Source: an uncultured Agathobaculum sp.
GTDB taxonomy: Bacteria; Bacillota; Clostridia; Oscillospirales; Butyricicoccaceae
Direction: 5' to 3'
Assembly (NCBI RefSeq): GCF_944384765.1
Contig: NZ_CALWUM010000001.1
Location: 124,001-188,000 of the forward strand
Length of the DNA stretch: 64,000 nt
The notes beneath the pieces were generated by a model. It worked only from the letters and a program-made list of their open reading frames with translations. It had not been told where the DNA came from and searched no databases. Below are positions 25,069 through 45,226 of this stretch, one piece after another; the stretch's first letter is position 1; every line of letters begins with the position of its first letter. A program made the translations under genes and the position numbers.

Positions 25069-25908
25069 TCAAAATACCGGCACAACCGCGCCCTTATAAG
25101 TGTCCTCGATGAACTGCTTGACCGTGTCGCTTCTGAGCGCATCGGCCAGCGCCTGGATTTTCTCGCTGTTTTCATCGCCGTTGCGGCAGGCCACGGTGTT
25201 GATATACACCTGCGCATACTCCGGGTTCTCGGTGATGAGCGAGTCCTCGTTCGCGTTCAGGTCAGCCTGCAGCGCATAGTTGCCGTTGATGACCGCGAGG
25301 TCCACGTCCGCCAGCGAGCGCGGCAGCTGCTCGGCTGCGATCTCCTGGATGTTCAGGTTTTTCGGATTTTCCACAATGTCCAGTACGGTCGCGTCCGAGG
25401 TCGGGTCAATGCCGTCCGCCAGCGTGATCAGGCCCGCATCCTGCAGCAGCAGGAGCGCGCGGGTCTCGTTCGAGCCGTCGTTCGGCACAGCGATGGTCGC
25501 GCCGTCCGCCAGCTCCTCGAGCGTTGCGGTCTTGCCCGGATAGATGCCGAACGGCTCATAGTGCATCTCGATTGCGGAGACCAGATCGGCATTGTTTTCC
25601 TTGTTGAAGTTGTTCAGGTACGGAATGTGCTGGAAGTAATTCGCGTCCAGATCGCCATCCACCAGTGCGGTGTTGGGCTGCACATAGTCGGTGAACTCCA
25701 CAACCTCGAGCGTCCAGCCCGCCTCGGCAAGCACATCCTTAGCTGCGTTCAGGATTTCCGCATGCGGCGTGGGCGAAGCGCCGACCACGATGGTCTTGTC
25801 GTCGGATGCGCCGCCTTCCGCGGTCTGTGCGTCGCTCCCGCCGCCGCAGGCGGTCAGGGCGGACAGGCACAGCGCGCCTGCCAGCAGAGCTGCAATTTTC
25901 TTCTTCAT
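25069..25908 (-). CDS. metQ: Methionine ABC transporter substrate-binding lipoprotein MetQ
   Basis: A 279-residue lipoprotein of the NlpA/MetQ family, which captures methionine for the MetNI importer. The signal peptide ends LSALTACGGG. Family motifs are VGASPTPHAEIL, VEFTDYVQPNTALVDGDLDANYFQHIPYL and IAVPNDGSNETRALLLLQDAGLITL. The start at 25908 is preceded by AAAGGAGAG. A 199-base spacer and a 73-residue reading frame separate it from metI, an unusual gap for this operon. I see no clear promoter in 25909-26107. Confidence 0.94.
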   Translation of the reverse strand: MKKKIAALLAGALCLSALTACGGGSDAQTAEGGASDDKTIVVGASPTPHAEILNAAKDVLAEAGWTLEVVEFTDYVQPNTALVDGDLDANYFQHIPYLNNFNKENNADLVSAIEMHYEPFGIYPGKTATLEELADGATIAVPNDGSNETRALLLLQDAGLITLADGIDPTSDATVLDIVENPKNLNIQEIAAEQLPRSLADVDLAVINGNYALQADLNANEDSLITENPEYAQVYINTVACRNGDENSEKIQALADALRSDTVKQFIEDTYKGAVVPVF

Positions 25909-26107
25909 GGCATAGTCTCTCCTTTTTTTGCTTTTTTGCTTTTCTTTTTTCCTTTTCCCAATCAACGAAACCGCGCTGCCCGGCGTATTTTGGCGCGCCG
26001 GCGGCCCGATTCCGTTTGATTCTGTTTTGCACGGGCACAGCCGTGCGGTTTTCCGGGCGCGCGGGGCGGCGCACAGGCGTCAAGCTGTCAACAATCCGCC
26101 GCGCCGG

Positions 26108-26329
26108 TCACTTTTCCGTGCACTTAATGCCGTAATTGCCCCGGCTACCGGGCTCATAGCCGCGGTACACCTCATAGTCCTTCCCGTCGATGCGGACGGT
26201 GTCCTCCGCAGGGAACGAACAGGACCAGCCGTTTTGGGCACAGTAGCCGGAAATGGCGTCTTTTGCCTTTGTGGCGGTCGGGTAGGTTCCGCTGTCCTCA
26301 TAAGGGACCCAAAATGCCTTTTTGAACAT
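26108..26329 (-). CDS. Small 73-residue protein inside the met transporter operon
   Basis: A 73-residue soluble protein beginning MFKKAFWVPYEDSGTYPTA and ending NYGIKCTEK. GAGGTG lies 6 bases before the ATG, and codon use looks like a real gene. It has two cysteines in YCAQNGWSCSF and an alternating strand/helix pattern, but no domain I recognise. It lies 50 bases after metI and before metQ on the same strand, so it should be co-transcribed with the transporter. A regulatory or unrelated role cannot be decided from the sequence. Confidence 0.65.
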   Translation of the reverse strand: MFKKAFWVPYEDSGTYPTATKAKDAISGYCAQNGWSCSFPAEDTVRIDGKDYEVYRGYEPGSRGNYGIKCTEK

Positions 26330-26379
26330 AAGCCGCACCTCTTTTCTGTCCCCTGCTCCGCCCCGGGCGTCCCGCCGGA

Positions 26380-27019
26380 TTATCGGTTGCGCTTGTCCAG
26401 ATGCCGCGCAAGCCACATACCGCAGGTCTGGAAGATCTGCACCACCACCACGATGATGATGACCGCAACCAGCATGATCTCAAAATTATACCGGTTATAG
26501 CCGTAGTTGACCGCGACCGTACCCAGGCCGCCGCCGCCGATAAAGCCCGCCATCGCGGAATAACCCAAAATGGTCACGATCGAAATCGCGCCGCCCACCA
26601 TGAGCGAGGGCTTGGCCTCGGGCACGAGCACCTTGCGCACGATCTGCCAGGGCGACGCGCCCATGGACTGCGCCGCTTCGATCACACCGAAGGGCACCTC
26701 CTTGATCGAGGACTCGACCATGCGCGCGACATAGGGCGCAGCCGCCACGGTCAGCGGCACGATCATCGCGGTTGTGCCGATCGCGCGGCCCGCGATCGCG
26801 CGCGTCAGCGGCGTGATCATGACCGCGAGGATCAAAAACGGGATCGAGCGCAGGATGTTGACGATCACGCCCACCACCGCGTTGACCACGGGCATCGGCC
26901 GGATGCCCTCCTTATCGGTCACGACCAGCAGCAGGCCGAGCGGCAGGCCGATCACATAGGACACCGCGGTCGACACGATGACCATATACAGGGTTTCCCA
27001 CAGGCTCTGGGCCCATACC

Positions 27020-27033
<14 letters not shown>
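26380..27033 (-). CDS. metI: Methionine ABC transporter permease MetI
   Basis: A 217-residue permease with five membrane segments, the normal MetI size. SSIKEVPFGVIEAAQSMGASPWQIVRKVLVPEA contains the EAA loop that docks on the ATPase. Other MetI marks are NILRSIPFLILAVMITPLTR and GGGGLGTVAVNYGYNRY. It overlaps metN by 14 bases, so the two are coupled. The start ATG is at 27031-27033. Confidence 0.95.
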
Positions 27034-28045
<1,012 letters not shown>

Positions 28046-28056
28046 TCCTCCTTTTC

Positions 28057-28098
28057 AAAATAAAAGCGGAAAGCAGACAATCTGCTTTCCGCTCGTTT
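28057..28098 (-). terminator. Attenuator terminator in the metN leader
   Basis: On the minus strand GCGGAAAGCAGA-TTG-TCTGCTTTCCGC (28066-28092), a perfect 12-bp stem, is followed by TTTTATTTT just upstream of the metN ribosome binding site. The preceding AAACGAGCGGA (28088-28098) can instead pair with TCTGCTCGTTT in the leader peptide gene (28178-28188), which would break the terminator stem. Confidence 0.8.
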
Positions 28099-28158
28099 CC
28101 CATCTTTGCTGCGCGCCGCATGACAAGCGGCCCGCTTACAGCTTTGCAACCTGTGTTT

Positions 28159-28227
28159 TCAAGGCTGCTTCGCAGAAAAACGAGCAGAACCGCACATCAT
28201 GCACATTTCCTTCCGGACCAAAAGCAT
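28159..28227 (-). CDS. 22-residue Met/Cys-rich leader peptide
   Basis: A short frame with an excellent ribosome binding site (GGAGG 8 bases before the ATG): MLLVRKEMCMMCGSARFSAK followed by QP and TGA. Methionines at 8, 10 and 11 and cysteines at 9 and 12 form the run MCMMC, far above chance for 22 residues. It lies between the operon promoter (28281-28309) and the terminator before metN. This is the layout of a ribosome-stalling attenuation peptide sensing methionine, or methionine and cysteine, supply. The peptide itself probably has no other role. Confidence 0.75.
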   Translation of the reverse strand: MLLVRKEMCMMCGSARFSAKQP

Positions 28228-28280
28228 TGCGGTTTCCTCCTTTTCCTACGAAATCAATAGAGTTTCATCTCTGTGGTTTT

Positions 28281-28309
28281 AGTGTATTCTATTCCGCGGG
28301 ATTTGTCAA
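28281..28309 (-). promoter_or_regulatory. metNIQ operon promoter
   Basis: TTGACA (28304-28309), 17 bases, TACACT (28281-28286) on the minus strand. The untranslated leader from here to metN is about 230 bases. I find no SAM riboswitch or T-box consensus in it. Confidence 0.75.
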
Positions 28310-28381: not shown

Positions 28382-28428
28382 TTGCTTTTTGGCGCGGGCG
28401 GGGTATAATGAAATCGAACAAATGTTCG
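28382..28428 (+). promoter_or_regulatory. SOS promoter with LexA box
   Basis: TTGCTT (28382-28387), 16 bases, TATAAT (28404-28409), then CGAACAAATGTTCG (28415-28428). The last matches the Gram-positive LexA/DinR consensus CGAAC-N4-GTTCG exactly and covers the transcription start. Confidence 0.88.
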
Positions 28429-28453: not shown

Positions 28454-29965
28454 ATGTCCGGCCGTACCTATCTCGCCATCGACCTGAAATCCTTTTACGC
28501 CTCGGTCGAGTGCGTCGAGCGCGGGCTCGATCCGCTGACCACCAACCTGGTTGTGGCCGACCCCGACCGCACGGAAAAGACCATTTGCCTTGCCGTGTCC
28601 CCCGCGCTCAAGGCTTACGGCATTCCCGGCCGCGCGCGGCTGTTCGAGGTGGTGCAGCGCGTCCGCGAAGTCAATGCAGCGCGCCGCCTGCGCGCCCCGG
28701 GGCGCTGCCTTGCGGGCGAATCGTGGGATGCGGCAGCGCTCGCGGCCGATCCTGCGCTCGCGCTGTCCTATCTCACCGCCGTGCCGCGCATGGCGCACTA
28801 TATCGCTTACAGCACGCGTATCTACCAGATCTACCTGCAATTTGTCGCGCCCGAGGACATCCATGTCTACTCGATCGACGAGGTGTTCATCGACGCCACG
28901 CCCTACCTTGCCGCGGGCGGGCTGACCGCCCGCGCGCTTGCGCAGCGCATGGTGCAGGCTGTACTGCGTGAGACCGGCATCACTGCCACGGCCGGCATCG
29001 GCAGCAATCTGTATCTGTGCAAGGTGGCGATGGACATTGTCGCCAAGCACGTCAGCCCCGACCGCAACGGCGTGCGCATCGCCGCATTGAACGAGCGCTC
29101 CTATCGCCGCCTGCTGTGGGACCACCGCCCGCTGACCGACTTCTGGCGCGTCGGCCGCGGCTATGCGCGCAAGCTCGAAGCCAACGGATTGTTCACCATG
29201 GGCGACATCGCGCGCTGTTCGCTCGGCGGGCCGGGCGACTACCACAACCAGCAGCTGCTGTACCGGCTGTTCGGCGTGAACGCCGAGCTGCTCATCGACC
29301 ACGCCTGGGGCTGGGAACCGTGCACCATGGCAGACATCAAAGCCTACCGCCCGGCCGCGCACAGCCTGGGCGCGGGACAGGTGCTGCACGAACCCTATCC
29401 CTTTGACCGGGCGCGGCTCGTGCTGCACGAAATGGCCGAGCAGCTCGCGCTCGACCTGACCGAAAAGCACCTGCTGACCGCGCAGCTCGTGCTCACAGTG
29501 GGGTATGACGTTGTAAACCTCTCCGACCCTGCCCGCTGCGCGCAGTACACCGGCCCGGTCACGACCGACCACTACGGCCGCCGCGTACCCCGGCACGCGC
29601 ACGGCACCGTGGGGCTGGAGCAGCCCACCGCCTCGGTGCAGCAGATCGCGGCGGCGCTGTGCGGCCTGTTCGACCGCATCACAGACCCGCGCCTGCTCGT
29701 GCGGCGGCTGACAATCACCGCCGCGCGCGTCACCGATGCGCACACCGCGGCCGCTGCCGCCCGCTATGAGCAGCTCGACCTGTTCACCGACTACGACGCG
29801 CGCCGCCTCGAACAGCAGGCGCGCGCCCGCGAGCAGCATATGCAGCAGGCCATGCTGTCCATCCGGCACAAATACGGCAAAAACGCCCTGTTCCGCGGCA
29901 TGGATCTGCAGGAGGGCGCGACCGCCCTCAGCCGGGGCGCGCAGATCGGCGGGCACCGCGCATGA
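28454..29965 (+). CDS. Y-family DNA polymerase, UvrX/ImpB-MucB-SamB type
   Basis: A 503-residue error-prone polymerase. The N terminus TYLAIDLKSFYASVECVERGLDPL is the Y-family metal-binding motif and YSIDEVFIDATPYL holds the catalytic Asp-Glu pair. Thumb and little-finger regions follow (TATAGIGSNLYLCKVAMDIVAKH; YRPAAHSLGAGQVLHEPYPF). Members bypass DNA lesions during the SOS response. A perfect LexA box overlies the start of transcription, and a YolD-like gene overlaps the 3' end by 4 bases, the standard Firmicutes SOS cassette. Confidence 0.92.
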   Translation: MSGRTYLAIDLKSFYASVECVERGLDPLTTNLVVADPDRTEKTICLAVSPALKAYGIPGRARLFEVVQRVREVNAARRLRAPGRCLAGESWDAAALAADPALALSYLTAVPRMAHYIAYSTRIYQIYLQFVAPEDIHVYSIDEVFIDATPYLAAGGLTARALAQRMVQAVLRETGITATAGIGSNLYLCKVAMDIVAKHVSPDRNGVRIAALNERSYRRLLWDHRPLTDFWRVGRGYARKLEANGLFTMGDIARCSLGGPGDYHNQQLLYRLFGVNAELLIDHAWGWEPCTMADIKAYRPAAHSLGAGQVLHEPYPFDRARLVLHEMAEQLALDLTEKHLLTAQLVLTVGYDVVNLSDPARCAQYTGPVTTDHYGRRVPRHAHGTVGLEQPTASVQQIAAALCGLFDRITDPRLLVRRLTITAARVTDAHTAAAAARYEQLDLFTDYDARRLEQQARAREQHMQQAMLSIRHKYGKNALFRGMDLQEGATALSRGAQIGGHRA

Positions 29966-44923: not shown

Positions 44924-45226
44924 GTTCAGCGCCCCACAAGACCGCACGCGGTCAATTCGAAAGCACACGCCCGGCTGCCTTTCCGCGGTTCGGGCTCAAA
45001 ATCGGCAGCTCTGCGGCACACGATGGTTTCCGCTTAATGCTGCTCGGTTCCCCGCCTGACATGGTTCACGGTCCTCCGTTGCGCAGTACCGGTCTCTCAT
45101 CGCCCTGTGGGCGGCTGCCTCGCCGCGCGTGCGTCCCTCCTTGCCCGCATCATCCCCGCTGTAGCGGATTGCGGGTGCAGGGCACCGCTAACGCCCCGAT
45201 GTGTGCGGCCTTGTGCGGCGCTGAAC
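44924..45226 (-). ncRNA. ffs: Signal recognition particle RNA, large (Alu-containing) type
   Basis: About 303 bases on the minus strand. The S-domain tip reads CATGTCAGG-CGG-GGAA-CCG-AGCAGCATTAAG (near 45040-45075), with the invariant GTCAGG/AGCAGC asymmetric loop and a GGAA tetraloop. The Alu part has GTGCCCTGCACCCGCAATCC near the 5' end, typical of Firmicutes scRNA. The ends pair: GTTCAGCGCC (45226 side) with GGCGCTGAAC (44924 side), continuing through GCACAAG/CTTGTGG. The RNA scaffolds Ffh for co-translational targeting. It lies upstream of dnaX as in other Firmicutes. Exact ends are estimated from the terminal helix. Confidence 0.9.

Follow-up and report, generated by a model that had tools for sequence, protein, structure and literature searches.

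Methionine genes of Clostridia are usually described as being under the control of SAM riboswitches or T-boxes. What, then, controls the metNIQ operon of a gut Clostridia bacterium with an Agathobaculum-type genome, where a first-pass annotation recognised neither and proposed a trp/his-type attenuator instead? We analysed this operon within a 64,000-nucleotide stretch of the genome (the window; positions 124,001 to 188,000 of contig NZ_CALWUM010000001.1), together with related loci. Folding models and comparison indicate that the operon is very probably controlled by a trp/his-type ribosome-mediated transcription attenuator. Its leader contains a short ORF with a run of Met and Cys codons, an intrinsic terminator, an antiterminator that excludes the terminator, and a protector helix, P1; the conservation of these parts and the absence of a known riboswitch support the first-pass proposal.

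The metN locus and its leader ORF

Downstream of the leader the operon runs metN–metI–DUF4318–metQ on the minus strand, as do all leader features described below. The metN product (27020–28045) matches the Pfam domains ABC_tran and NIL, and its best NCBIfam match is MetN, under that model's cut-off. The permease gene metI (26380–27033) scores over the cut-off of NCBIfam NF008049 MetI, a small DUF4318 protein (26108–26416; Pfam PF14201) is encoded between metI and metQ, and the substrate-binding lipoprotein gene metQ (25069–25965) is identified by Pfam Lipoprotein_9 (E 2.5e-91) and NCBIfam MetQ/NlpA family matches. While the metN ORF opens with GTG at 28045, translation more likely begins at the conserved TTG at 28039, since the upstream ATG/GTG codons lie too near the ribosome binding site and are out of frame in one relative (L021).

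The sigma-70-type promoter that the first-pass annotation had placed at 28281–28309 (TTGACA-17-TACACT) is found there, with 10 of 12 consensus matches, and all 18 aligned relatives keep both the TTGACA box and a −10 element of the TA-AACT/TACACT type. Further upstream, CGAACATTTGTTCG (28415–28428) fits the Gram-positive LexA (SOS) box; it is the sole CGAACN4GTTCG in the window, where 0.12 are expected, and precedes a divergent Y-family DNA polymerase gene (28454–29965).

The leader ORF (28159–28227) has 22 codons (MLLVRKEMCMMCGSARFSAKQP, stop TGA). A Shine-Dalgarno core GGAGG (28236–28240) can be read from the sequence and is conserved in the alignment, and the control codons, 8 to 12, spell Met-Cys-Met-Met-Cys (MCMMC; 28192–28206); ORF, ribosome binding site and codon run thus all stand where the first-pass annotation had put them. 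Comparison suggests that the ORF is under selection as a reading frame. The frame is kept in 18 relatives, length changes within it come in multiples of three only (−3 in L018, −6 in L021), ATG gives way to GTG as start codon, and TGA and TAA alternate as stop. Those same 18 relatives also keep the promoter, the ribosome binding site, the Met/Cys run, the antiterminator and the terminator, which answers for the small ORF and the terminator the question of conservation that the first-pass annotation had left for checking.

The codon run itself varies. The L015 and L017 leaders read MxC-D-M11-C and keep Met11, and L021 has lost MCMMC and keeps Met10 without a Cys. Every aligned relative has Met at position 10 or 11, while Cys is absent from this region in L021, L109 and L110; methionine is therefore more likely to be the main signal. 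Cysteine is possibly sensed as well.

Such ORFs are concentrated at metN. An ORF of 12–50 codons was counted as Met/Cys-rich if it had a ribosome binding site and five or more codons for Met or Cys, of which three or more had to be Met. In the roughly 500 bp ahead of metN, such an ORF is present at 35 of 77 related loci: at 17 of the 18 Agathobaculum-type loci and at 18 of the 59 that are more distant. Elsewhere in those 77 loci a single small ORF out of 936 qualifies, itself a metN leader just past the cut-off, and at non-metN sites none is found in about 1 Mb on both strands; of the 99 window ORFs that have a ribosome binding site, only the metN leader ORF qualifies. Because Met/Cys-rich ORFs concentrate upstream of metN in this way, the presence of a Met/Cys leader ORF there is not due to chance. 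Since Met/Cys content was part of the basis on which the distant leaders were chosen, it is their position at metN, and not their composition, that counts as independent evidence.

Known methionine sensors and distribution of the leader

Rfam scans at both gathering-score and permissive settings detected no riboswitch or T-box at the metN leader: neither the SAM-I riboswitch (S-box, RF00162) nor the T-box (RF00230) matched, bearing out the first-pass reading on this point. In the genome as a whole there is one SAM riboswitch, ahead of metK, and none of the 13 T-boxes is at metN. The same genome encodes one protein with an S-methyl_trans domain (PF02574; C3:89403–90215), and a MetE-type methionine synthase (PF01717) was not detected in it. 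The Rfam scan of the window also located the bacterial large SRP RNA (44942–45208). We do observe T-boxes or S-boxes at the metN genes of other Clostridia, where the SAM-I riboswitch and the Met T-box have been described (PMC11477304). These elements share with the leader examined here the control of metN operon transcription and differ from it in the sensor.

Searched with a covariance model of the leader, 23 of 25 genus genomes yield a single copy each, and these are exactly the 23 that carry this metN; in one of them (G003), leader and metN are on separate contigs, each ending at the contig edge. No convincing match was obtained in other members of the family, including 22 with a metN homologue. 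Three further matches were rejected: a second one near rnpA in G026 (E 2.5e-4) is a terminator-like sequence that resembles P3 and not a leader, and two weak ones in other genera (E ~0.07) lack such an ORF.

Alternative helices of the leader RNA

The leader of the window folds at z = −6.6. A helix stronger than the antiterminator, absent from the first-pass annotation, is P1, which was recovered both by RNAalifold and in the minimum free energy structure of this leader. The 5′ strand of P1 (28229–28249) includes the Shine-Dalgarno sequence, and its 3′ strand (28172–28193) lies within the leader ORF directly after the Met/Cys run and is the very strand that the antiterminator needs. The P2 hairpin (GCAGCC/GGTTGC; 28146–28168) surrounds the leader stop codon and perhaps has a role in pausing. 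P3 (CGGGCCGC...GCGGC; 28115–28134) is conserved and is the sole exact copy in the genome; an unpaired CGGG ahead of it is likewise conserved in the genus, and hairpin and CGGG together are perhaps a pause site. The intrinsic terminator, immediately ahead of metN, has a conserved stem-loop (28064–28094) and a T-rich tail (28057–28063). Its location agrees with the first-pass annotation, while the terminator scan gives a stem of 14 rather than 12 bp. Across P1, P2, P3 and the terminator, 97.8% of cells are paired, and nine pairs have changed on both sides in a total of 21 cells, more than in any of 500 shuffles; P2 supplies most of these compensatory changes, in 6 of its 6 pairs.

The antiterminator is formed by TTCTGCTCGTTTTTC (28175–28189) and GGGAAACGAGCGGAA (28087–28101). 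The first-pass annotation had described this pairing as 11 bp (28178–28188 with 28088–28098) taking five bases of the terminator stem; the pairing is real but extends to 15 bp, and it takes eight bases of the stem's 5′ arm. Among 19 sequences 97.9% of its cells are paired, compared with 56–65% when one strand is slid by 1–3 columns, and pairing of the leader with the 5′ side of the terminator gives z = −2.8, with 3 of 300 dinucleotide-shuffled controls doing as well. The pairing is thus conserved, as the first-pass annotation anticipated, but the covariation that it also anticipated is not seen: the 19 sequences contain no two-sided change, only changes of the U-A/U-G type, and the support for the helix therefore lies in conservation and purine-only variation. 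The best support comes from the stretch where the 3′ strand extends upstream of the terminator stem, to which no other role is assigned and in which nearly every base that faces a U is A or G. Antiterminator pairing was of weak or no significance in the other leaders L015, L017, L116, L119, L121, L132 and L134.

Ribosome stalling and the proposed switch

Calculated helix energies are −29.7 kcal/mol for P1, −22.5 kcal/mol for the terminator hairpin and −19.9 kcal/mol for the antiterminator. Folding of the unhindered leader yields P1 and the terminator. When the upstream RNA is masked and the 3′ arm of the terminator is not yet made, the antiterminator forms in 20 of 20 leaders folded. With the full terminator present in the stalled state, the leader of the window retains the terminator at equilibrium and most relatives retain a shortened form of it; antitermination must therefore be kinetic, that is, a matter of timing.

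To place the stall we moved a 30-base ribosome footprint codon by codon along the ORF, ignoring kinetics. If pairing across the ribosome is allowed, the antiterminator forms for stalls at codons 2–6 and 9–11 and P1 at codons 7–8, with neither structure from codon 12 to codon 21 and partial pairing again once the ribosome reaches the last codons and would be terminating. If pairing across the ribosome is forbidden, the antiterminator forms for all stalls up to codon 11, so that among the control codons only the outcome at codon 8 hinges on this choice. Stalling at control codons 9–11 thus favours the antiterminator in silico in both cases, and this effective stall window (Cys9, Met10, Met11) contains the position 10 or 11 Met of every aligned relative.

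The switch would then operate as follows. With plentiful charged Met-tRNA, and perhaps also Cys-tRNA, the ribosome would pass quickly; once it is gone, P1 would re-form and sequester the antiterminator strand, leaving the terminator to fold and transcription to end near 28057. A ribosome stalled at codons 9–11 would instead break P1 and leave TTCTGCTCGTTTTTC free to pair with GGGAAACGAGCGGAA before the 3′ arm of the terminator is synthesised, and RNA polymerase would continue into metN.

Other readings of the leader

The attenuator could work as proposed and yet respond to cysteine, to sulfur amino acids in general or to a slowdown of translation, which we regard as unlikely though worth weighing. 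Cys9 is inside the effective stall window, and Cys stands beside Met in 27 of 27 representative leaders (Met 20% and Cys 10.5% of residues), a set partly picked for its Met/Cys content. On the other hand, L021-type leaders keep the Met at the effective position with no Cys there, and the operon is annotated as one for methionine transport.

We give very little credence to the idea of a novel riboswitch that binds SAM, methionine or a similar metabolite, with P1–P3 as aptamer and the ORF incidental. The strong covariation of P2 would suit it, as would the conservation of P3 and its unpaired CGGG, which is left without an explanation otherwise. However, Rfam returned no match, the frame survives changes of 3 and 6 bases with synonymous changes of start and stop codons, coding and pairing account for most of the conserved bases, and unrelated leaders elsewhere have only the Met/Cys ORF, promoter and terminator in common. 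Nascent-peptide arrest of the TnaC type, with MCMMCGFARFSA acting as a ligand-sensing peptide that halts the ribosome making it, would account for the high conservation of GFARFSA after the Met/Cys run. It is most improbable, however: the conservation of this stretch is explained by its being the strand common to P1 and the antiterminator, L111 has VPARFSA, L021 is without MCMMC and the peptides of other lineages are unrelated in sequence.

Relation to known leader peptides

The attenuator proposed here shares with trp/his-type systems (trpL, hisL) a translated short ORF with codons for the regulated amino acid, followed by mutually exclusive protector, antiterminator and intrinsic terminator before amino-acid genes. 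It differs from them in its predicted signal, Met (perhaps also Cys), and in preceding transporter genes, as well as in the layout of the RNA: the 5′ strand of the trp protector is formed by the control codons themselves, whereas region 1 of the window leader is the strand of the ribosome binding site, upstream of the control codons.

A precedent at the same operon is metL of Streptomyces lividans, proposed before metNIQ as a leaderless ORF with no typical terminator found (PMC8079986). The two have the operon and a Met/Cys-rich peptide (ending in RCMCRRMCAF in S. lividans) in common, while S. lividans belongs to another phylum and no sequence relation is visible by eye. Classification of the window ORF as metL-type was rejected, as an untranslated leader and a ribosome binding site precede it and it is not leaderless. 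In Campylobacter jejuni, a MetL of 20 amino acids with three Met codons was predicted before metBA (PMC3847290); its initiation and translation were seen by Ribo-seq, which also revealed another small Met-rich ORF ahead of a gene for methionine transport (PMC11955535). MetL resembles the window leader in being a short Met-containing peptide encoded on a short RNA whose end lies past the stop codon, and differs in preceding biosynthesis genes in an epsilonproteobacterium (PMC3847290). Among Firmicutes, the histidine leader peptides of bacilli hisS/hisZ (PMC2965389) are likewise leader-peptide attenuators that replace T-boxes, though for histidine and at tRNA synthetase genes. A survey of Actinobacteria reported no methionine leader peptide (PMC1262725).

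We found no earlier report of a methionine leader peptide in Firmicutes in a literature search that left subscription journals mostly outside. The novelty claimed in the first-pass annotation for a Met leader attenuator of MetNIQ thus holds for Firmicutes as far as could be found and is narrowed by the S. lividans precedent: the Clostridia version before metNIQ appears to be new, the kind of switch is already known. Such ORFs are shorter than the usual gene finders can pick up and Rfam has no entry for the element, which is therefore likely missed in annotation.

Met/Cys leaders elsewhere in Clostridia

Met/Cys leaders at metN are recurrent but patchy. In other genera of the family, metN is preceded by leaders unrelated to that of the window (L116, MMMQCAMMCRMSAMMCGFF...; L119 and L121, MRNFIAMM.MEM...; L131; L134), as it is in another family (L181, MTICGFVMMMAMFMCGMMMMPRF...). 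One genus member (G007) has a second metN on contig C8, whose product is 46% identical to MetN and which is preceded by an unrelated Met-rich leader of its own, L132 (MFIVNARMSGRMCMNMLYYAQMLPDRQNMKLL), with a terminator. Terminators are present in all seven and promoters are shown for all except L181; what these leaders have in common with that of the window is the Met/Cys ORF, the promoter and the terminator, not the RNA sequence. Neither an S-box nor a T-box was found in any of the 18 loci with distant Met/Cys leaders. Outside the family, the order sample has a Met/Cys leader at 1 of 26 metN loci. A search of 391 genomes of the class with the strict DNA pattern MCxMCGMC was dropped after a single match and no pattern of spread.

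Related genera have four solutions at metN, namely the S-box, the T-box and at least two leader peptide families unrelated in sequence; metN is therefore well suited to the study of how one RNA sensor comes to replace another. It is a tentative idea that Met/Cys leader peptides arose repeatedly at metNIQ in Clostridia, replacing S-box and T-box and reading Met-tRNA and Cys-tRNA together through one leader as a common sulfur amino acid sensor.

The second large leader type, M[RK]TS...MCNMCGMC, occurs in Herbinix-like and related Clostridiales. A strict pattern finds its terminator conserved in 14 of 19 leaders. An 11-bp helix joins the start codon region to a later strand with 95.2% of cells paired, counted in the corrected register, as the search model had this helix one column out. 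That model (R2, Lachnospirales-type) finds one copy per genome in 10 of 10 source genomes and matches 1 of 150 members of the wider family; the R2-type leader is therefore restricted to a clade.
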